From positions 1 through 64,000 of IMG/VR virus record IMGVR_UViG_3300011115_001056: a stretch of DNA of 64,000 nt; one strand, given 5' to 3'. The position numbers and the translations under genes were made by a program. Shown one piece after another: positions 3,148-42,881 of this stretch. Position 1 is the stretch's first letter. Each line of letters opens with the position of its first letter. This DNA comes from a virus. Under the pieces are notes generated by a model. That model saw only the letters and a program-made list of their open reading frames with translations. It searched no databases and was not told the origin of the DNA.

Positions 3148-6100
3148 AAAAATAGGTTATTCCCCATCCCCCATTACAAAGCTATCGAAAGACGCAGTTC
3201 TTGCCGATCCTGTTATTGTCGAAAGAATGACAAAACTAGCTCACGAGATCAAGAGTCTTGCTGCAAAGTCTGATGACTTTCTTTATTTCTCCATTATCTT
3301 TCTTAAGTCCGCAGAATCCTCCCTTCTTGATGAGGCAGGAAATCTGAAGAAAGTAGGAAATGATAGAGCTTGGGGTTACTTTGATGAGGGCTGGAAGTGG
3401 CACGGAAATGTTAAACCACACAAGAATAACAACGGCGATATTTTTCCTGAGATTGAATTAAAAAAGGCAGCATCCAAATGGATCGGAATGCCTCTCTGCA
3501 AAGATCATGAATCATCCTCCGTTGATGGAATCAGAGGTATCATTCTCGATACCTATTATGATGATAAGATGAAGCAGGTAGTTGGTCTTTGTGCTCTTGA
3601 TAGAGTAAATTATGGAGATCTTGCTAGAAAAGTTGAAACTGGCGTAGTAAGATATGGATCAATGGGTACCGCAGTAGAAACCTCTGTTTGCTCTGATTGT
3701 CAGAATTTTGCAAAAACTGCAAGCGAATACTGTAATCACGTTAAGAGTCGCACCGCTTGGGGAGAAGTAAACGTAGGACTCAAACCAATTGAGTACAGCT
3801 TGGTTGTTCAACCTGCAGAACCCGGTGCAGTTCTTCTTCGTTGCATTGCTTCACTTCAAGACTATAAGAAAGAGTTTTCTAACTATGGCGTTCAGAATTT
3901 TGATGAGATGCTTGGAAAGCTTTCTCTCGATCAAGCACAACACCTCAGTACTATAGTCAAAACTGCTTGCGGAGAGGAGGGATGTTCTCCTTCCGAAAGA
4001 AGAAAAATTATTACATCATTTTTAAAAAACAACAGCTTTTTAGCTCCACCAATTAACGAAGAACAAAGTATGACCTCCTCTTGGAGTGATGCTCTTCGTA
4101 ATCCCGGAGAATTTGTTAGCCATAATCTTGATGGTGTACCAGATTACACCGGAACTGATGGTAGCAAGGGAGTTATTGCGTCTGGCGTAGAAAATTCAGC
4201 CGATAGAGGAAATCCATTTCTAGGAGATACGATTCTAGATAATATTCCCGATATTAACGAAACTGTCAAAAGTGCCTCTCAATTAAATGAGGGCAGGAAA
4301 TCTAAGTCTCTAATTTCAACAATCATGGAGGATATAATGACCGAGTCACAGCTCAAGAAAAGAGCAGAATTAAGAAGAAAACTAGCCTATCATCAGGGTG
4401 GAGCAGACGGTGTAGAGCCAACCGGCACCTACAAGTCCAAACCATTCTCTCACAACGAAGATAAACACATGAAGCAGACCAAGACCATGGGTAGCAAAGA
4501 TAGCCTCTTCCCAGGCGACGAGCAGAAGAAAGAGAAGCTTTCTCGTGCAGATCTTGAAGAGCGTCAGATGCGTCGTGTTGCTTACTTCCAGGGCGGATCT
4601 GAGAAGGCAGCTGAGCCTGTAGGCTACAAATCTAAGCCATTCTCTTACAATGAAGATAAGCACATGAAGCAAACCAAATCTATGGGTAGCAAGGAAACTA
4701 TGTTTCCAGGCGATGAGAAGACCAAGCAGACTCTCAAAAGAGCCGCTTATAACGGTCCATCCCTCAGCACCAAACTAAGCTGGCCAGTTTCTCCTGCCGG
4801 TGGCATCAACAAGTCCGCTGCACTCTTCGAAGTTTACGCTGGTGATAGGAAGGTAATTGCCGCAACAGGCCACGAAATCTTCGGTGATGAAGTTGGTCAG
4901 AATTGGGGTTGGTTTACCAGCAAGGAATACGGTCAGGAAGTTTGCAAACAAATTAGAACTGCAGGTCTTAGCCAAGTTGCCGTACTTCTTAAGGGTGCAC
5001 AGGCCGTAGACCCAGCCGCACCAGTTCCTCCTCCTGCTCCTGCCGATATGCCTCCAGCCCCTCCAATGCCTGATATGGGCGGTATGCCTGATATGGGCGA
5101 TGAGTCTGAAGAGGGCGAAGAAAAGAAGTCTCCAAAAGAAGAAGTTGAGGAATCTCTCACAGTAATGGAGAGTGAGATTGATAAGGTCAGAAAGTCTCTA
5201 CAGAGCCTCACCGGCGGTGAAGATGTTAACGTAAATGTTAATGTTGGAAAAGAAGAAGAAGAGGGCGGCTCACTTAAGCTTTCCCATTCTGTTGCACGTC
5301 AATTAAAGACTGCTCTAGCTGAAATGAATGAGTCTGCTGACGAACTCGCCATGATTGCTGAAACCTATGAAGGTGCTGGTCGCCTTTCTTCTAGCAATAG
5401 AAGAGAGCTTGACAAGATTGCTACAGCTTCTCTTAGAGAGGCATCAAGCCTTATTGGCCAGTCTACAACTCTTACCAAAATGGCAAGAACACTCTCTGTT
5501 GAGCTAACCAAGGTTGCAAAGATTGCATATGCAGAAGATCATTCTTCAATGGCCTATGATTCCGCAGAAGATTATGCTGCAGATATGATGGGCCACATGT
5601 CTGATGATGCTGCAGACATGATGAGCCATATGTCTGATGATTCTGATGACGATCTTGCTGATGATTCAGATCATGAAGATGATTCTGTTAATGACCTTAT
5701 GTCAAAGGCAATGGATTTTAGACGTATTAGAAGAGAACAAATTGTAGTTGAGGCTGCTAAAAAGTCCAAGAAGATGGATGAAAAAATGGAGAAGCTGAGA
5801 GCCTCCAAGAAGGGTGATAAGAAAGACGAAAAGGCTGATAAAAAAGACGAAAAGAAAGGTGATAAGAAAGACGAAAAGCCTGCAAAAAAGAAGGCATTTG
5901 AAGAAGTTGAAATGTCAAAATCTGCCGGTCTTCGTGATATGGTAAACAATGCATTTCAGACCAAGAAGGCCGAAGATGAGAAAGACTCCTACAAGATTAA
6001 GCTTCGTAGAGCTTACGATGTTGCCATAGAGATGCAGAAGAAAGGATTACTTCCTATCAGCAAGACTGCTCTTGATAAGCAAGTAGATGACATCATGGAC

Positions 6101-6874: not shown

Positions 6875-6893
6875 TAATTTTTCTGTAGATTAA

Positions 6894-6936
6894 AAGAAGT
6901 AGGGGTAGTAACATACTCCTACTTCTTATTTTTTTG
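6894..6936 (+). terminator. Rho-independent terminator after the protease/core genes
   Basis: A 14-bp stem (6894-6907 with 6914-6927, one G-U pair) with a 6-nt loop is followed directly by a T-rich run to about 6935. It closes the first transcription unit. Confidence 0.85.
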
Positions 6937-6968
6937 CTAATTAATAAAGATTACTTTGGAGATACCCA

Positions 6969-12110: not shown

Positions 12111-12132
12111 TTAATTAGGTAGATACCTCATT

Positions 12133-12166
12133 GGGCCAGGTAGGGAAACTTACCTGGCCCTTTTTT
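12133..12166 (+). terminator. Strong rho-independent terminator after the capsid gene
   Basis: A perfect 10-bp GC-rich stem (GGGCCAGGTA at 12133-12142 with 12151-12160), an 8-nt loop and a run of six T. This is the strongest terminator in the window, just after its most codon-biased gene. Confidence 0.92.
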
Positions 12167-12197
12167 ATGCTAATAGATTTAAAATAAGTGGTGTAAA

Positions 12198-17671: not shown

Positions 17672-17697
17672 TCTTTAGTCTAGGCTGAATAAGCCGG

Positions 17698-17728
17698 GGG
17701 AGCGAGAGAAGTCTCGCTCCCTTTTTTT
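17698..17728 (+). terminator. Strong rho-independent terminator after the fibre gene
   Basis: A perfect 10-bp stem (GGGAGCGAGA at 17698-17707 with 17712-17721), a GAAG tetraloop and seven T. It ends the fibre transcription unit. Confidence 0.92.
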
Positions 17729-17760
17729 GCTAATATATCTTCTATATTTTAGGAGATATT

Positions 17761-22249: not shown

Positions 22250-23410
22250 ATGAAAAAAAATAGTTATCTAAAGAATATCTTAACAAAAGAATTACTTGAA
22301 AAAGAATTTGCAGAATTAAAAAGTTCTAAAGCTATAGGAAGAAAACTTGGTATTTCTGGAGAAACAATCTCGCGTTATATGGAAGATTTAGGATTAATTC
22401 CAAATAAAAAATTAAGCTATAATTGTAACCACAATATATTCTCTATTGATACGGAACAATCATTTTATCTTGCCGGCTTTATTGCTGCTGATGGATGTAT
22501 TAAATCCAAAAAAGGAACAACAAGCAGAAGCCTTTATATTGGGCTATCAGGTAAGGATAGGTCGCATCTTGAGAAAATTAGGGCTGCACTCGGAGCAGAG
22601 CATCCAATTTGTGACTATGTGGTAAAAAACTCAAAAAAAAATTCAAACTGGAATGATTCGCCCGCAAGCTCGCTGACGGTCACCTCCGCACAAATCTACC
22701 AGGATCTCCAGCGTTTCAATATTACGGAAAGAAAAACTCACACTCTAACCTTTTCAGACTGGATGAAAGATCATCCACTTCGCCACCACTTTATCAGAGG
22801 CTATATTGATGGAGATGGATCTTTCTACCATGCTTTAGGAAAAGGAAAAAAGGTCAAACAAGTTTTCTTTTCTGTCAGAGGCACCGCCCAATTTCTCACC
22901 TCCCTCCGCTCCATCTTAGAGGCCGATCTTAATCTAGAGGAAAGAACAAAAGATATAAGATTCAACGGTGGCATTGGGGTTCTGGAGTATGGCGGAAATC
23001 GACTCTGCAAGGCTCTGGCCGAATATCTCTATGAGGACGCTACTATCTGCCTTGAGCGAAAGAAAGAGGCTGCATTTGCATTCCAGGGCTGGGATACGAA
23101 GGAGTTTTTTGAGGACAAGGGAATCTCAAAAGAGGTCCTTGAGGAATCATACTTGAGAACTAAAAGCATTTCAAAGACAGCCGCAGAACTAAAGCTAACT
23201 ATGGGAACGACCTATAATTACCTCTTAAAAAATAAGATTCAAATCTTTGAATCTCCGCAAGCTAAGAAAGAAAAGCTTTCATCAGCCTGCACCCCAGAGG
23301 CACTAAAAGATTCTTACAATAATCACAAAACAATTTCAGGTGTAGCAAGGGAATTTGGCATAGGAAAAACAACAGCAACAAGATATTTAAAGTCTGTGGG
23401 GATTATCTAA
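22250..23410 (+). CDS. LAGLIDADG-family homing endonuclease, free-standing
   Basis: A 386-residue protein. Two LAGLIDADG-type helices are visible: FYLAGFIAADGCI (residues about 77-89) and HFIRGYIDGDGSF (about 182-194). Each supplies the acidic metal ligand (AADG and DGDG) of a single-chain enzyme. The N-terminus has a helix-turn-helix (SSKAIGRKLGISGETISRY), and the C-terminus has two more (SKTAAELKLTMGTTYNYLL and SGVAREFGIGKTTATRYL), probably DNA-recognition modules. It lies as a separate gene between virion genes. Codon use in the middle is more GC-rich than at the ends, which may mark horizontal acquisition. No intron or intein is apparent. Confidence 0.85.
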   Translation: MKKNSYLKNILTKELLEKEFAELKSSKAIGRKLGISGETISRYMEDLGLIPNKKLSYNCNHNIFSIDTEQSFYLAGFIAADGCIKSKKGTTSRSLYIGLSGKDRSHLEKIRAALGAEHPICDYVVKNSKKNSNWNDSPASSLTVTSAQIYQDLQRFNITERKTHTLTFSDWMKDHPLRHHFIRGYIDGDGSFYHALGKGKKVKQVFFSVRGTAQFLTSLRSILEADLNLEERTKDIRFNGGIGVLEYGGNRLCKALAEYLYEDATICLERKKEAAFAFQGWDTKEFFEDKGISKEVLEESYLRTKSISKTAAELKLTMGTTYNYLLKNKIQIFESPQAKKEKLSSACTPEALKDSYNNHKTISGVAREFGIGKTTATRYLKSVGII

Positions 23411-36842: not shown

Positions 36843-36893
36843 ACTACTAATAACAAATAGTCTAATTGATTTTAGATTCGGAGGTTTTTAATT

Positions 36894-39800
36894 ATGGCTA
36901 ACATTCCAGGGATAAGCGGCTACGTACAGCCAGGTACTTTTGCAAGAGACAGAGTTGTAACTCGTGGCGTTTCAATACCTGGCGGTCTTCGCATTACCTG
37001 TATTATGGGAGAAGGCCTCAAAGAAGAGGTTATTATTGATTCTGCTTTTGGTAATGGTCAGGACGGCTCTGCTGATTGCAGCCCTACCGGAAATGGCGAT
37101 AGCAAGTATTTTCAGCTTGCAGAAGCACCTGTGGTTGTGGGAAGAACAAGAGTCTACCTTAACGGCACAGAGCTTTATGGCACAGAAGGTCTTGTAGACG
37201 GAAGTTCTTTTTCTAGCAAATTCGACTTTAAACTGGATCCAGATTCTGGGTGCATTGAGCTTCAGGGAGCCTCAATTGGCGACCAAAATGGAAAGAATTA
37301 TTCTGCATCACCCTCTAATGTTGGAAACGGATCAATTGTAGATCTTCCTCCTTGTGGTGATTACCAGCTAATCTCTCTAGTAGACGCAAATGCCCTTGCA
37401 GAAAGATGGACAATAAGATGCGTTTCTGTCATTAGAGATTCTCTTGGAAATCCAATTCCAGGCCTTTCTACCTTTACAGTTTCCGGCTCCGTTTCTGGGC
37501 AAATAAAAGATTCTTCAGGATCACCAATCCTATTCCACGGAACAAATCCAGCACTCTTTAACAGGAGTGGTGGTGCAATCCCAGGAACAGCAGATATGTG
37601 TACTGACTCCTATGTTGTTGCGGATGATACCGTATACGGATTAGGATCTGCAGATGTCTCTGTTGATGATGCATCTCCAGGAACCACGGATCGCTTTCAG
37701 GTAAATACAGACTTAGTAAGTCCCGGCCAAGTACTTGTCGGAGATCATCTCTGCATTACAGCAGATGGATACAATCCTGCTGATGGAATTATGATTAAGT
37801 CACTTTCCTATAGCTCTGGAAAGACCACCATTGTTCTAGAGACAGATACTCTTGACTCTGATTTATCTAATGTTTCTTGGTCAATTAGAGCCTCAGACAT
37901 CTTTATTGATGACGTAACTGTTGCACACAATTCCTCCGGAACTCCAGCAACTGCTGGTTATTTTTCAAGTAGAGAGATTGGAAAAGTAGTTCTTCTTTGC
38001 AACGGTCCAGCTCCAGGTTATTATTTAATTAAGTCTGTAACCTCTTCTCGCAGAGTAAGAGTTCATCTTCTTGGCGATTCTGCCACTGGGTACCCAGAAA
38101 TGGCATCAGGGCTAGTTCCAGGGATTGCAGATGGTGGAGATAATATCACCTTTAGCATTCTTGAAACCAACGGTATATTAGTTTTTGGTATTAGAGAAGG
38201 ACTTGCTACAAATGTTACTGGAACAGATATTCCATTTGCAGTCGGAGATAGATTCTTCATTGATGTAAAATCTAGAATTCTAAAGAGTGGTGATAGACTT
38301 GAGTCAAAGTACATCCCAGAGCTAACTTTAAATGATCCAGAGTTTTTTGTTAGTGCAAATGATCTTTTCTCTAAGCATGGAACTCCTAGCCTAACAAACA
38401 CCTTATCTCTTGGTGCCCAAATGGCATTTGAGAATGGTGCTCCTGGACTACTTGCAATTCAATGTAAACCCGCAATCTCAAGACGTTCAAGTGCTACACT
38501 ATTCTCTGAGCAGATCAGTGGAAAGGGCGGCTTCCCAGCTTGCGGAGGTACCTATACCAACTGTCAAGTAGATGATTTATCCTTCATTATTCCAGTGCCA
38601 GCTTCTGGACTTGGAAGCGGTGCTCCAGATTCTGCCACCGGGGTAAACTTCTTTGTTACCAGACGTGGAGTTGAAACTCAGATTTTCCCCAATAAGGTAG
38701 ATTTCTACAATTCTCAATTTGAATCTGAAACTGCACAGAATGGATTTATTTCTAGCCCACAATACTCTTATTCTTATACCGTAGTTAATACTGATGTAAA
38801 AATCACCGGACAGGGAATCAGCGCAACTCTGGTAGGTTCAACAGGCTACTTTACATCCCTTGACGTAGATTTTGATAGCACAGATATTGGTAGAGTTATA
38901 GTTGTACAATCTCTAATTGAGGATGATGGCACCACCGTTGATACTACCAAGAGTGAGATTGGAACATATCTCTTTGGATCTGGAACAACTGTTGAGTTAG
39001 AAATTACTGCAATAATCAATGATAATACTGTTGAAGTACAATCTATAGAACCACTGGATTCCTTTCAGTCAACCGCTAGCGCAACTGATATCGTCTTCTT
39101 TGTTAAGGACGAATCTGACACTACTAATGTGGCTGCAAAGATTCTTCTTCATAGAGATTTAGTAGCAAGCAAAACCTTAATGCCAGGCGATGGCCTCAGA
39201 ATTTCATACATTGATGAAAAAGATGCAACCTTCTTTGATACCAACTGGTTTGAAGCCTTTGAAAGACTTGAGGCTGCAGAATGCCAGATCATTGTTCCTC
39301 TTCCAACTCAGAATATTTCTGGAATCTTCCGTGCATCAGTTTCTCACTGCGAGACTATGAGCACCATTGCCAACCAGAAGGAAAGAATGACCTTAGTTGG
39401 TGCCCAGAGAGGCCTCACCACAGCCGCGCTTCTTGGACAGAGGGAAGTAGCCATTGAGGATGTCGGTGTCCTAGAGGGCATCCAGGGCGATGATGCAACA
39501 GAAATTCTTGATGGTAATACTGAGGATCTTGTTAACTACAAACTCTCTGATAATTTCAATAGCAATCGCGCAGTTTACTTCTATCCAGATCAGATCATCA
39601 GAAATGTTTCTGGCGTAAATAACTACGTTAATGGTTTCTATATGGCCGCTGCAGCAGGAGGTTATCTTTCTGCCACACAGAATGTAGCTGTTCCCCTTAC
39701 CTTTAAAGAGCTTACTGGATTCTCCATCGGAAGAGATCGCATCTTCCGCAAACAGGTTCTTGACCAACTTGGTGGAGAGGGAGCAACTGTAGTTCAGCCA

Positions 39801-40151
39801 ATAGCTGGAGGAGGAAGGGTTCTGGCTGGTCGTACTACTAGCCACTCCGGCTTTGTAGAGGACGAAGAGATTTCAATTGTCTTTATTCGCGACAGAGTAA
39901 AGAAAGTACTCAGAGATCTTATGATGCCATTCGTTGGAACAGTTGAGGATGCAAATACTCAGGGGGTTATGACTTCTAAGGTAAAAACCATTATGAGCGG
40001 ACTAGTTTCTCAAGGTTTAATTACAGGCTTTAAGAGCATTAGAGTAGAGAAAGATAAGGTTGATCCTAGACAGTGGAACATCTATCTTCAGTTTACTCCA
40101 GCTTATCCAATCAACTATATTTTTATCGATTTAGAAATTGGAATAGCTTAG
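36894..40151 (+). CDS. Tail sheath protein
   Basis: A 1085-residue protein with a GGAGG leader. The opening IPGISGYVQPGTFARDRVVTRG is typical of contractile sheath proteins. The C-terminal third carries the conserved sheath core: NNYVNGFYMAAAAGGYLS, FSIGRDRIFRKQVLDQL, a glycine-rich turn, then EISIVFIRDRVKKVLRDLM and a final beta strand with WNIYLQFTPAYPINYI. This core forms the handshake strands and tube-facing domain. At 1085 residues it is much longer than T4 gp18 (659), with a large beta-rich insertion in the middle that probably decorates the sheath surface. The tail tube gene follows after an inserted HNH gene. Confidence 0.85.
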   Translation: MANIPGISGYVQPGTFARDRVVTRGVSIPGGLRITCIMGEGLKEEVIIDSAFGNGQDGSADCSPTGNGDSKYFQLAEAPVVVGRTRVYLNGTELYGTEGLVDGSSFSSKFDFKLDPDSGCIELQGASIGDQNGKNYSASPSNVGNGSIVDLPPCGDYQLISLVDANALAERWTIRCVSVIRDSLGNPIPGLSTFTVSGSVSGQIKDSSGSPILFHGTNPALFNRSGGAIPGTADMCTDSYVVADDTVYGLGSADVSVDDASPGTTDRFQVNTDLVSPGQVLVGDHLCITADGYNPADGIMIKSLSYSSGKTTIVLETDTLDSDLSNVSWSIRASDIFIDDVTVAHNSSGTPATAGYFSSREIGKVVLLCNGPAPGYYLIKSVTSSRRVRVHLLGDSATGYPEMASGLVPGIADGGDNITFSILETNGILVFGIREGLATNVTGTDIPFAVGDRFFIDVKSRILKSGDRLESKYIPELTLNDPEFFVSANDLFSKHGTPSLTNTLSLGAQMAFENGAPGLLAIQCKPAISRRSSATLFSEQISGKGGFPACGGTYTNCQVDDLSFIIPVPASGLGSGAPDSATGVNFFVTRRGVETQIFPNKVDFYNSQFESETAQNGFISSPQYSYSYTVVNTDVKITGQGISATLVGSTGYFTSLDVDFDSTDIGRVIVVQSLIEDDGTTVDTTKSEIGTYLFGSGTTVELEITAIINDNTVEVQSIEPLDSFQSTASATDIVFFVKDESDTTNVAAKILLHRDLVASKTLMPGDGLRISYIDEKDATFFDTNWFEAFERLEAAECQIIVPLPTQNISGIFRASVSHCETMSTIANQKERMTLVGAQRGLTTAALLGQREVAIEDVGVLEGIQGDDATEILDGNTEDLVNYKLSDNFNSNRAVYFYPDQIIRNVSGVNNYVNGFYMAAAAGGYLSATQNVAVPLTFKELTGFSIGRDRIFRKQVLDQLGGEGATVVQPIAGGGRVLAGRTTSHSGFVEDEEISIVFIRDRVKKVLRDLMMPFVGTVEDANTQGVMTSKVKTIMSGLVSQGLITGFKSIRVEKDKVDPRQWNIYLQFTPAYPINYIFIDLEIGIA

Positions 40152-40167
40152 TAATCTTTATTACATC

Positions 40168-40217
40168 TTTCCCCATTAATTACTAATTAAAAAAGTATAA
40201 AGTAATTAATGGGGAAA
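40168..40217 (+). promoter_or_regulatory. 17-bp hairpin covering the ribosome-binding site of the HNH gene
   Basis: A perfect 17-bp inverted repeat (40168-40184 and 40201-40217) with a 16-nt loop. Its 3' arm contains AATGGGGAAA, that is, the GGGGA ribosome-binding site 5 nt before ATG 40221 and the alternative ATG at 40209. There is no T run, so it is not a terminator. In read-through RNA from the sheath it would hide the start. T4 homing endonuclease genes such as I-TevI are controlled in this way. Confidence 0.7.
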
Positions 40218-40220
40218 TTT

Positions 40221-41153
40221 ATGTTTTATGCAAATTGTAAAAATTGTGAAGAAAAGATGGAATACGGCAGCCGTCAGGCTGCCAATATAGCAAAGCGTAA
40301 TGGAACACTCTGTGGGCAGTGCAGGGAAGGAATAAAATCTCAAGCAGATGAGGTTGGATCAAAAAGAAACTGCCCAGAATGCAACACGGAGCTTCAATAT
40401 AAAACAGCCGCAATCTGTAGGGCTGCCCAGAAAAAAGGTCTATCTTGTGTTAAATGTAGCAAGAAATCAGAAAATTATTCTGGGTTAAAAAGAATATGTC
40501 CATCTTGCAGCATAGAATTGATTTACAAAACTACCGATTCTGTAACAAGAGCCAATAAGCAAAACGACACCTGTAAGTCTTGTTCATTAAAAGGAAAGCG
40601 ACCATCCGAGCAATGCATGGATGCAGCAAGAGCGGCAGTAACAGGAAGAAAACTTTCCGAAGATCATATTCAAATAATAAAAAATGCAAATACTGGATTA
40701 AAAAGAAGTGAAGAAACAAAGAAAAAAATGTCAGAAGCTATGAGTGGAAGAGTTTTTTCAGAAGAAACAACTCAAAAAATGAGTAATTCTGTAAAAAATA
40801 AACCACCAATTTCCGAAGAAACTAGAGAAAAATTTGCAAGATTAAAGAGGGGAACAATTCACTCTGAAGAGTCTAGAAGAAAAATTAAAATTGCACATAA
40901 TAAGAGATTTTTTAGAGAGCCAGACTGGACCGCCCCATTTACCATGGGAGAACTGAGAACTTGGGCTTCTCGCGCAAAAAAGAAAACCCCATATTGTGAA
41001 GACTGCGGTGCAAAGGAAGAGCTTCACGCGCACCACGTAAAGCCAAAGTCAATTTATCCAAATCTTGCTTTGGATGAAAATAATGTAAAAATTTTGTGCA
41101 AAAAATGTCACATGAAATTCCATAAAATAAATGGACTTAATGATAGTCAATAA
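40221..41153 (+). CDS. HNH homing endonuclease with zinc-finger and NUMOD3 repeats
   Basis: A 310-residue protein. The N-terminal half holds repeated CxxC zinc modules (NCKNCEEK/LCGQCRE, NCPECNTE/SCVKCSKK, ICPSCSIE/TCKSCSLK), each followed by an AAxxA or TRA helix. Residues about 130-225 carry NUMOD3-like DNA-binding repeats (LSEDHIQII, SEETKKKMSEAMSGR, SEETREKFARLKRG). The C-terminus is an HNH nuclease: CEDCGAKEELHAHHVKPKS, then LDENNVKILCKKCHMKFH, with the catalytic HH pair and two zinc CxxC. ATG 40221 is preferred over 40209 because of the GGGGA site. It is a free-standing gene placed between sheath and tube, as homing genes often are in phage late regions. Confidence 0.88.
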   Translation: MFYANCKNCEEKMEYGSRQAANIAKRNGTLCGQCREGIKSQADEVGSKRNCPECNTELQYKTAAICRAAQKKGLSCVKCSKKSENYSGLKRICPSCSIELIYKTTDSVTRANKQNDTCKSCSLKGKRPSEQCMDAARAAVTGRKLSEDHIQIIKNANTGLKRSEETKKKMSEAMSGRVFSEETTQKMSNSVKNKPPISEETREKFARLKRGTIHSEESRRKIKIAHNKRFFREPDWTAPFTMGELRTWASRAKKKTPYCEDCGAKEELHAHHVKPKSIYPNLALDENNVKILCKKCHMKFHKINGLNDSQ

Positions 41154-41253
41154 TAAAAGATAACATTTTACTATCACAAATATTTATAATAAAATAAATC
41201 TATTAATTTATATTAAAAGTAAGTAGAAGACACTCTATTCGGAGATAAACTAA

Positions 41254-41868
41254 ATGGCCTCATATCCTAGAACTGGATCTAATCTAGACTCAACCACCAA
41301 AAGCTCACTTTCAACCCAGATAATAATCATGGTTGAGAACGAACCCGTAGGTGCCATTCAATCATTTGGTGAAACTCAGTCAAGACCAATTAAACAGGTA
41401 TCAGAAGTTGGAACGGATGGTATCATCGAGCTGGTTCCTCAGGGTCCAACAAAAGTTTCCTTGTCAATAGACAGAATGTACTTTGATGGATTATCCTTAC
41501 CAGAATCATTTTCTCGTGGATTTAGAAATCTTCAATCACAAAGAATTCCTTTTGACATTGTTGTAATTGATCAGTTTACTGGGTCTGGAAATGATGCAAT
41601 TATAACCACCTATCATAACTGCTGGTTTAACAATCTTTCAATCACTTATTCTGCCTCTGATTACACCATTGCTCAAAGAGCTGGCGTAGACTGCGAATAT
41701 GTCTCTACCATTAGAGGCGGAGAAGCAATAGCACTCAGCCAGGGAGTTGGTGGTGGCAGACAGATTCCAGGAGTACAGCTTGACGAAGCAGAGACTGCAG
41801 CAGATTCTGGAGCAAACGGTAGAAGAGGATCTCTAGATTATCCCGGATTAATTTCAGCCGCTTACTAG
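41254..41868 (+). CDS. Tail tube protein
   Basis: A 204-residue protein with a GGAG ribosome-binding site. The pattern NEPVGAIQSFGETQSRPIKQ, then VSEVGTDGIIELVPQGPTKV and SLSIDRMYFDGLSLPESF, followed by a VVIDQF strand and CWFNNLSITYSASDYTIAQ, is that of T4 gp19-type tube proteins. The Asn/Gly/Arg-rich C-terminus may be flexible. It follows the sheath (interrupted only by the HNH gene) and precedes the chaperones, the usual myovirus order. A terminator follows directly. Confidence 0.8.
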   Translation: MASYPRTGSNLDSTTKSSLSTQIIIMVENEPVGAIQSFGETQSRPIKQVSEVGTDGIIELVPQGPTKVSLSIDRMYFDGLSLPESFSRGFRNLQSQRIPFDIVVIDQFTGSGNDAIITTYHNCWFNNLSITYSASDYTIAQRAGVDCEYVSTIRGGEAIALSQGVGGGRQIPGVQLDEAETAADSGANGRRGSLDYPGLISAAY

Positions 41869-41946: not shown

Positions 41947-42471
41947 ATGAAACCAGGCTCAAAAGTAGTTGCATCACATGATATTGGTGCAGTAAGAGGA
42001 AAAGTAACGTCCAATCCAAACTTAGACCCAGATCTTATTAATAAAAGATTTGAAAAAGCCGAAGAAGAATCTGAGACAAAAAAGCAAATTTCTTATTCCG
42101 TTCCAAAAGAGCTAAAAGGATTAGAAAATTTAATATTTCTTGGTGCAAATACTAGAGATATTAAGCTTGGAGAGTTCTCATTTACTCTTAGCACACTTTC
42201 TGCAAAACAGCAAGAAATTATTTTTAAAAGTGCGTTAGATATTTCAGAGCAAGAAAGAATTCTTTTCTTTAAAAAAGGAGTTTTGGCTTCTTCTATTAAA
42301 AGAATTAATGGAAGACCGCTATCCTCCTATCTTGAAGAGGATACTTTTCAAGCTAGAATAGAATTAGTTGAAACACTCCAGCAGTCAGTTTTTGATTTAT
42401 TATTTGAAGAGCTAGATGAAATTACTTCTGAAGCCGAAAAGATCTTGACGGCTGAAAATTTAAAAAAATAG
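41947..42471 (+). CDS. Tail assembly chaperone, short form (G-like)
   Basis: A 174-residue helical protein between the tail tube and the tape measure gene, the invariant place for tail assembly chaperones. The core GEFSFTLSTLSAKQQEIIF, then DISEQERILFFKKGVLASSI, resembles chaperones of this type. It ends in LKK-stop on the slippery run TTTAAAAAAA, where ribosomes can shift -1 into the next frame. Ordinary termination gives this short G-like product. The chaperone coats the tape measure during tube assembly. Confidence 0.78.
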   Translation: MKPGSKVVASHDIGAVRGKVTSNPNLDPDLINKRFEKAEEESETKKQISYSVPKELKGLENLIFLGANTRDIKLGEFSFTLSTLSAKQQEIIFKSALDISEQERILFFKKGVLASSIKRINGRPLSSYLEEDTFQARIELVETLQQSVFDLLFEELDEITSEAEKILTAENLKK

Positions 42472-42881
42472 TAAAAAGCTCCGACCACTACATCAGGTGG
42501 GAGCTTTGCAAGATTTGGAAATGCAGAGTAGATGATCCTATCTTTGAAGGAATAAACCAATCACAATTACTGTGGTATTCTTTGATGATATCCGATGATA
42601 AAGAAAGAGAGTTTGATAAAACCCTATCTTACTTAGAGTATCATGCCTCATTTACAAATCATGAGGGAGTAAAAAAAGCAAAAGAATTTAGAAAAGAACA
42701 AAAAGAAGACACCGTTAAAGAAGCAGAAGAATTTATTAACTCCGTTAAGAATAATGAATTTAAAAATAATCCATTAATTGAGGCAATTAAGAAATTAAGA
42801 GAGTCTAGCATATTAAGTTCAGAAAAAGAAAATGCATTTAACTCTATTAATTTAAATAAACTTATTAAGGAAGATATTTAA
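42456..42881 (+). CDS. Tail assembly chaperone extension reached by -1 frameshift (T-like)
   Basis: The -1 frame opens after a stop at 42453-42455 and continues to 42881. Its first part (SDHYIRWELCKIWKCRVDDP, then INQSQLLWYSLMISDD) has the WE...W.cR.dD pattern of T-like chaperone domains and lies upstream of any plausible start codon. It should therefore be made only as a fusion to the 174-residue protein, giving about 311 residues. A short ORF with TTG at 42582 is part of this reading frame and not a separate gene. The stop lies 1 nt before the tape measure ATG. Confidence 0.8.
   Translation, partial: KFKKIVKSSDHYIRWELCKIWKCRVDDPIFEGINQSQLLWYSLMISDDKEREFDKTLSYLEYHASFTNHEGVKKAKEFRKEQKEDTVKEAEEFINSVKNNEFKNNPLIEAIKKLRESSILSSEKENAFNSINLNKLIKEDI
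42459..42507 (+). promoter_or_regulatory. -1 programmed frameshift signal
   Basis: Canonical slippery heptamer T TTA AAA at 42459-42465 (a second, A AAA AAA, at 42462-42468) directly before the zero-frame TAG. After a 9-nt (or 6-nt) spacer comes a hairpin with an 8-bp stem, AAAGCTCC at 42475-42482 with 42500-42507. The -1 frame is closed at 42453, so the shift must occur within a 13-nt window that holds the heptamers. Confidence 0.82.

Follow-up and report, generated by a model that had tools for sequence, protein, structure and literature searches.

A leader hairpin predicted to lock the start site of an HNH homing endonuclease gene that separates the sheath and tube-like tail genes in a large phage

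A common leader hairpin arrangement has been described for several homing endonuclease genes, namely I-TevI, I-TevII, I-TevIII, T4 segB and Aeh1 mobE (reviewed in PMC2988022). I-TevIII and the mobE product are HNH enzymes, and mobE, the leader hairpin of which was reported by Gibb and Edgell (2007, 2009, as reviewed in PMC2988022), is a free-standing gene. Homing genes can also carry promoters of neighboring genes, which favors their retention (PMC2988022). Here we describe a locus with a similar organization in a 64,000-nucleotide stretch of viral DNA (hereinafter the window; positions 1 to 64,000 of the IMG/VR record IMGVR_UViG_3300011115_001056). An earlier note on this DNA had likened the logic of the locus to that of T4 I-TevI, and the published descriptions (PMC2988022) make this comparison an apt one; the accompanying suggestion that the lock apparently evolved anew for an HNH enzyme has to be dropped because I-TevIII and mobE, both HNH, already carry such hairpins.

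The endonuclease gene (40221 to 41153, plus strand, 310 amino acids) is located between the tail sheath gene (36894 to 40151, plus strand, 1085 amino acids), the prospective source of read-through RNA, and a gene for a tail-tube-like virion protein (41254 to 41868, plus strand) that lies 3' of the insertion. The sheath protein belongs to the PHROG tail sheath family, with the Pfam sheath C-terminal domain detected slightly below the cut-off, and the tube-like protein is a PHROG virion structural protein. The endonuclease contains a Pfam HNH domain (5e-8) and three NUMOD3 stretches (1e-7) and matches the HNH and homing endonuclease families of PHROG. This supports the HNH/NUMOD3 identity proposed in the earlier note, and the position of this free-standing gene directly after the sheath gene likewise agrees with it. 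The only phage match to this protein in GenBank shows 33% identity over 40% of the query and is antisense to the annotated genes. A homing function in this phage, i.e., cleavage or nicking of empty alleles with biased inheritance, is putative. The window encompasses a second probable homing gene (22250-23410), which encodes a LAGLIDADG-like domain together with a helix-turn-helix; an exact CTATTAATA is found 29 nt upstream of this gene, and its start is associated with no stem of at least 11 bp.

The hairpin consists of a 5' arm (40168 to 40184, TTTCCCCATTAATTACT) and a 3' arm (40201 to 40217, AGTAATTAATGGGGAAA) on the plus strand that are complementary at 17 of the 17 positions and enclose a 16-nt loop (40185 to 40200), the predicted region of the 5' end of the endonuclease transcript. 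The perfect 17-bp inverted repeat noticed in the first reading of the sequence is thus present where it was placed, and RNA folding, suggested then as a check, yields a stable structure (-34.1 kcal/mol for 40150-40280, z = -5.2, with none of the shuffled sequences equally stable). No other perfect stem with a loop of up to 30 nt in the complete phage record of 132,563 bp is as long, the analytic chance expectation for stems of at least 17 bp being 0.0007; 25 simulated genomes of matched dinucleotide composition contain a mean of 0.04 stems of at least 13 bp and none of at least 15 bp. An Rfam search of 39900-41400 detects no known RNA family near its gathering score. The GGGGA Shine-Dalgarno sequence (40211 to 40215, plus strand) lies within the 3' arm, 5 nt upstream of the ATG at 40221. 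The 3' arm also includes the alternative in-frame ATG (40209 to 40211, plus strand) that had been pointed out along with the GGGGA, but this codon is ACG in the relative L003 and is not conserved as a start. Because the in-stem ATG is lost in L003, the ATG at 40221 is the likely start codon of the endonuclease.

Accessibility of the Shine-Dalgarno sequence was estimated by partition-function folding with moving RNA 5' ends. When the 5' arm is present, the probability that the Shine-Dalgarno sequence is unpaired is about 0.03, whereas it rises to at least 0.9 for RNAs that begin at 40176 or further downstream, so that the switch falls between 5' ends at 40170 and 40176; the relatives L003 and L004 behave alike. 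Comparable occlusion is found in only 4 of the 61 other genes that have a Shine-Dalgarno sequence. The sheath stop codon is 16 nt upstream of the stem, and a ribosome terminating at this distance should not melt it; terminating ribosomes should therefore leave the hairpin closed.

These features can be accommodated in a scheme in which a mobile HNH homing endonuclease gene, together with its own regulatory leader, entered the narrow space separating the sheath and tube-like genes. The leader in read-through RNA of the sheath gene would fold as computed, the 17-bp hairpin would bury the Shine-Dalgarno sequence and the endonuclease would not be translated. A separate short transcript begun in the 5' arm or the loop, from a candidate promoter, would be free of the lock and hence translated; more generally, expression would require an RNA beginning in the 5' arm, the loop or the 3' arm, and the endonuclease dosage would be uncoupled from strong transcription of the structural genes. 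We assign a probability of roughly 60% to this entire reading, i.e., an inserted HNH gene, a hairpin lock on read-through RNA and release by an internal start. The lock mechanism overall is likely, and the internal promoter step is a candidate. The earlier note had proposed that read-through RNA is locked and internally started RNA is free, which agrees with the computed sequestration and release, but the promoter match inside the hairpin is only at the chance level (P about 0.15). Judging from the function of its product, the sheath gene is expected to be expressed late and strongly. Because this gene has the same kind of promoter-like motif as the other genes, the hairpin likely would shield the endonuclease from a strong transcript instead of postponing its expression from early to late.

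The HNH, sheath and tube proteins served as queries against viral contigs to identify relatives of the locus. In L003 and L004 (HNH proteins 90% and 71% identical to that of the window, respectively), the endonuclease gene and the hairpin occupy the same site; an alignment-based scan for more distant relatives of the endonuclease with leaders of their own returned only the same two loci. In L007, most of the endonuclease gene is gone, apparently through a deletion between short TTTTATG(C/T)AAA repeats, and the stem is retained at 33 of the 34 arm positions (P 5e-6) next to a diverged loop; the remnant (L007:2111-2350) comprises the stem, the 3' end of the gene and the tube-promoter motif. In L009, the same gap (L009:3865-5121) contains a gene for a FeoA-domain protein and an N6/N4 DNA methylase as cargo. 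In most relatives, the tube-like gene directly follows the sheath gene, with an empty gap of 12-25 bp (L010, L027, L028 and many others). Thus, the presence of the endonuclease at a single intergenic site is sporadic among close relatives. Because intact, remnant, other-cargo and empty alleles are all seen, the sheath-tube gap is best interpreted as an insertion hotspot, with the endonuclease as an optional passenger. Identity at four-fold sites between the window and L003 is 86% for the HNH gene vs 41% for the sheath gene and 36% for the tube gene; the HNH gene is far less diverged than its neighbors and therefore appears to have moved between these lineages. Judged from the same pair (dN about 0.05, dS about 0.53), the HNH gene is under purifying selection.

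Several other viral contigs contain sequences matching the 5' arm. In L008/L054, the contig end coincides with the end of the arm (5681-5697 of 5697), which would be expected had assembly stopped at the hairpin or at mixed alleles. The unrelated viral contig L058 (594-760) shares the 17-mer, and an imperfect inverted partner follows after about 80 nt, upstream of a small HNH-like open reading frame; this may be a coincidence. The exact matches to the 5' arm in L053, L055, L056 and L061 are devoid of a partner arm and look like chance occurrences.

The 69-nt leader is identical at 65 of the 69 positions between the window and L004, compared with 41 of the 76 four-fold sites in the HNH gene (P 1e-8) and 57 of the 112 in the sheath gene (P 1e-10). 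The leader of L003 is no better conserved relative to the window than the silent sites of the endonuclease gene itself (P 0.19), so the argument for selection on the leader rests on L004. The 5' arm is identical across the relatives except for one C to T substitution in L003, and the loop differs at 0 of 16 and 2 of 16 positions in the intact relatives and is heavily changed in L007. The L003 stem includes two mismatches and two G-U pairs, and folding of this leader is weaker (z -1.5); in the full L003 leader, the Shine-Dalgarno sequence is still paired (probability unpaired 0.01). No compensatory base changes were found in the stem among the four sequences, so covariation gives no proof of pairing.

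An unsupervised motif search first recovered only the Shine-Dalgarno sequence; once this was trimmed, CTATTAAT-like words stood out, and the promoter-like motif of this phage group is CTANTAATA. Plus-strand counts of CTATTAATA in the window's phage are 5 in 3.6 kb of intergenic DNA vs 2 in 122 kb of coding DNA. The candidate promoter of the sheath gene, CTACTAATA (36844 to 36852, plus strand), is intergenic, 41 nt upstream of the sheath start, and is conserved in the relatives, which retain CTACTAATA or CTAATAATA upstream of their sheath genes. For the T4 late promoter TATAAATA, none of the 12 exact plus-strand matches falls in an intergenic region, and this candidate was rejected. In three places in the window (6875-6968, 12111-12197 and 17672-17760), an intrinsic terminator is immediately followed by a TGCTAAT-type motif, a recurring terminator-promoter junction. 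Within the hairpin, the 5' arm contains the candidate promoter CCATTAATT (40173 to 40181, plus strand), a degenerate match to CTATTAATA with a PWM score of 4.4; the counterpart in L003 is CTATTAATT (score 8.7, P about 0.014), which is only suggestive. The best match to the promoter motif in the hairpin of the window is TTACTAATT at 40180, the chance-level match mentioned above. A promoter inside the hairpin is plausible on these grounds. Between the endonuclease and tube genes, CTATTAATT (41200 to 41208, plus strand) is identical in the window, L003, L004 and L007 and is replaced by CTATTACTT in L009; this candidate promoter may serve the downstream tube gene and restore its transcription. Its preservation in L007 fits the idea that homing genes are retained through the promoters that they carry (PMC2988022).

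The main rival to the start-site lock, with which it could coexist, is that the hairpin serves mainly as an intrinsic terminator or an mRNA 3'-end stabilizer of the sheath transcript, occlusion of the Shine-Dalgarno sequence being a positional by-product. After the stem comes TTTATGTTTT (6 T in 8), a U-rich stretch with some terminator character; L009 has, directly after the sheath gene and ahead of its other cargo, a different hairpin with a long U-tract, i.e., a textbook terminator; and L007 keeps the arms despite loss of the endonuclease and divergence of the loop, which hints at an endonuclease-independent role or a very recent loss. However, the approximate terminator scores of the four versions of the hairpin (-10, -31, +4 and -24) are below or near the threshold, whereas the clear terminators (that of L009 and three in the genome) score 18 to 50; scores of -7 and 1 were obtained for weaker candidate terminators in the genome. 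Furthermore, the hairpin has no uninterrupted U-tract, and the intact copies preserve the Shine-Dalgarno sequence and its spacing to the ATG. We consider a chiefly terminator-like role less likely than the lock. About as probable as this rival is a combined scenario in which the stem would be a two-way insulator that ends or protects the sheath message upstream and locks the endonuclease start downstream, with the promoter-like motif of the tube gene letting the homing gene live cheaply in a late structural operon and with selection on the stem persisting even after loss of the endonuclease. Another hairpin without a U-tract, AAAGCTCC...GGAGCTTT, is located at 42475-42507 of the window, after a gene ending at 42471.

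Two further explanations appear much less probable. The hairpin could be a processing site at which a double-strand RNase cuts the helix and frees the Shine-Dalgarno sequence; activation of the gene would then depend on processing and not on a new promoter. The helix is long and perfect, but a length of 17 bp is short for RNase III to cleave efficiently, and we regard this mechanism as improbable despite the RNase E processing reported for the T4 segB/segG and Aeh1 mobE messages (PMC2988022). Alternatively, the palindrome could function at the DNA level, as an operator bound by the endonuclease acting as an autorepressor. The leader is indeed palindromic, and I-TevI of T4 binds an operator resembling its homing site (PMC2988022), but comparison of the leader with the flanks of the empty site in four relatives reveals no consistent similarity; an operator resembling the homing site was rejected on these grounds, and autorepression is the least credible of the explanations considered.

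The start-site lock, which we favor over these alternatives, resembles the known cases to different degrees. T4 segB and seg43 of Aeromonas phage 25 are likewise free-standing homing genes with stable leader hairpins, but they belong to the GIY-YIG family, and the seg43 hairpin precedes the Shine-Dalgarno sequence without covering it. The similarity to I-TevI, I-TevII and I-TevIII of T4 lies in a Shine-Dalgarno sequence that is locked on read-through RNA and free on RNA begun within the hairpin; those genes, however, are intron-encoded, and their lock shifts expression from the early or middle stage to the late stage, whereas here it would insulate the endonuclease from a structural gene. The closest match is Aeh1 mobE, a free-standing HNH homing endonuclease gene at an intergenic site, with a late promoter placed such that its transcripts escape the hairpin. 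Unlike the present gene, mobE resides among the ribonucleotide reductase genes of a T4-type phage rather than between sheath and tube-like genes; in addition, no T4-type late promoters are found in the sense-strand intergenic regions of this phage, and the internal promoter is only a candidate. The locus differs from the known ones in lineage, in the host operon (presumably late structural genes vs early or middle metabolism genes) and hence, probably, in purpose. The intact, remnant, other-cargo and empty alleles provide a natural comparison set at one site. If confirmed, these observations would extend the T4-type start-site lock to an apparently unrelated lineage of large phages that differs in its promoters and its HNH protein, and would suggest independent arrival at one way of domesticating a mobile gene within an essential operon.
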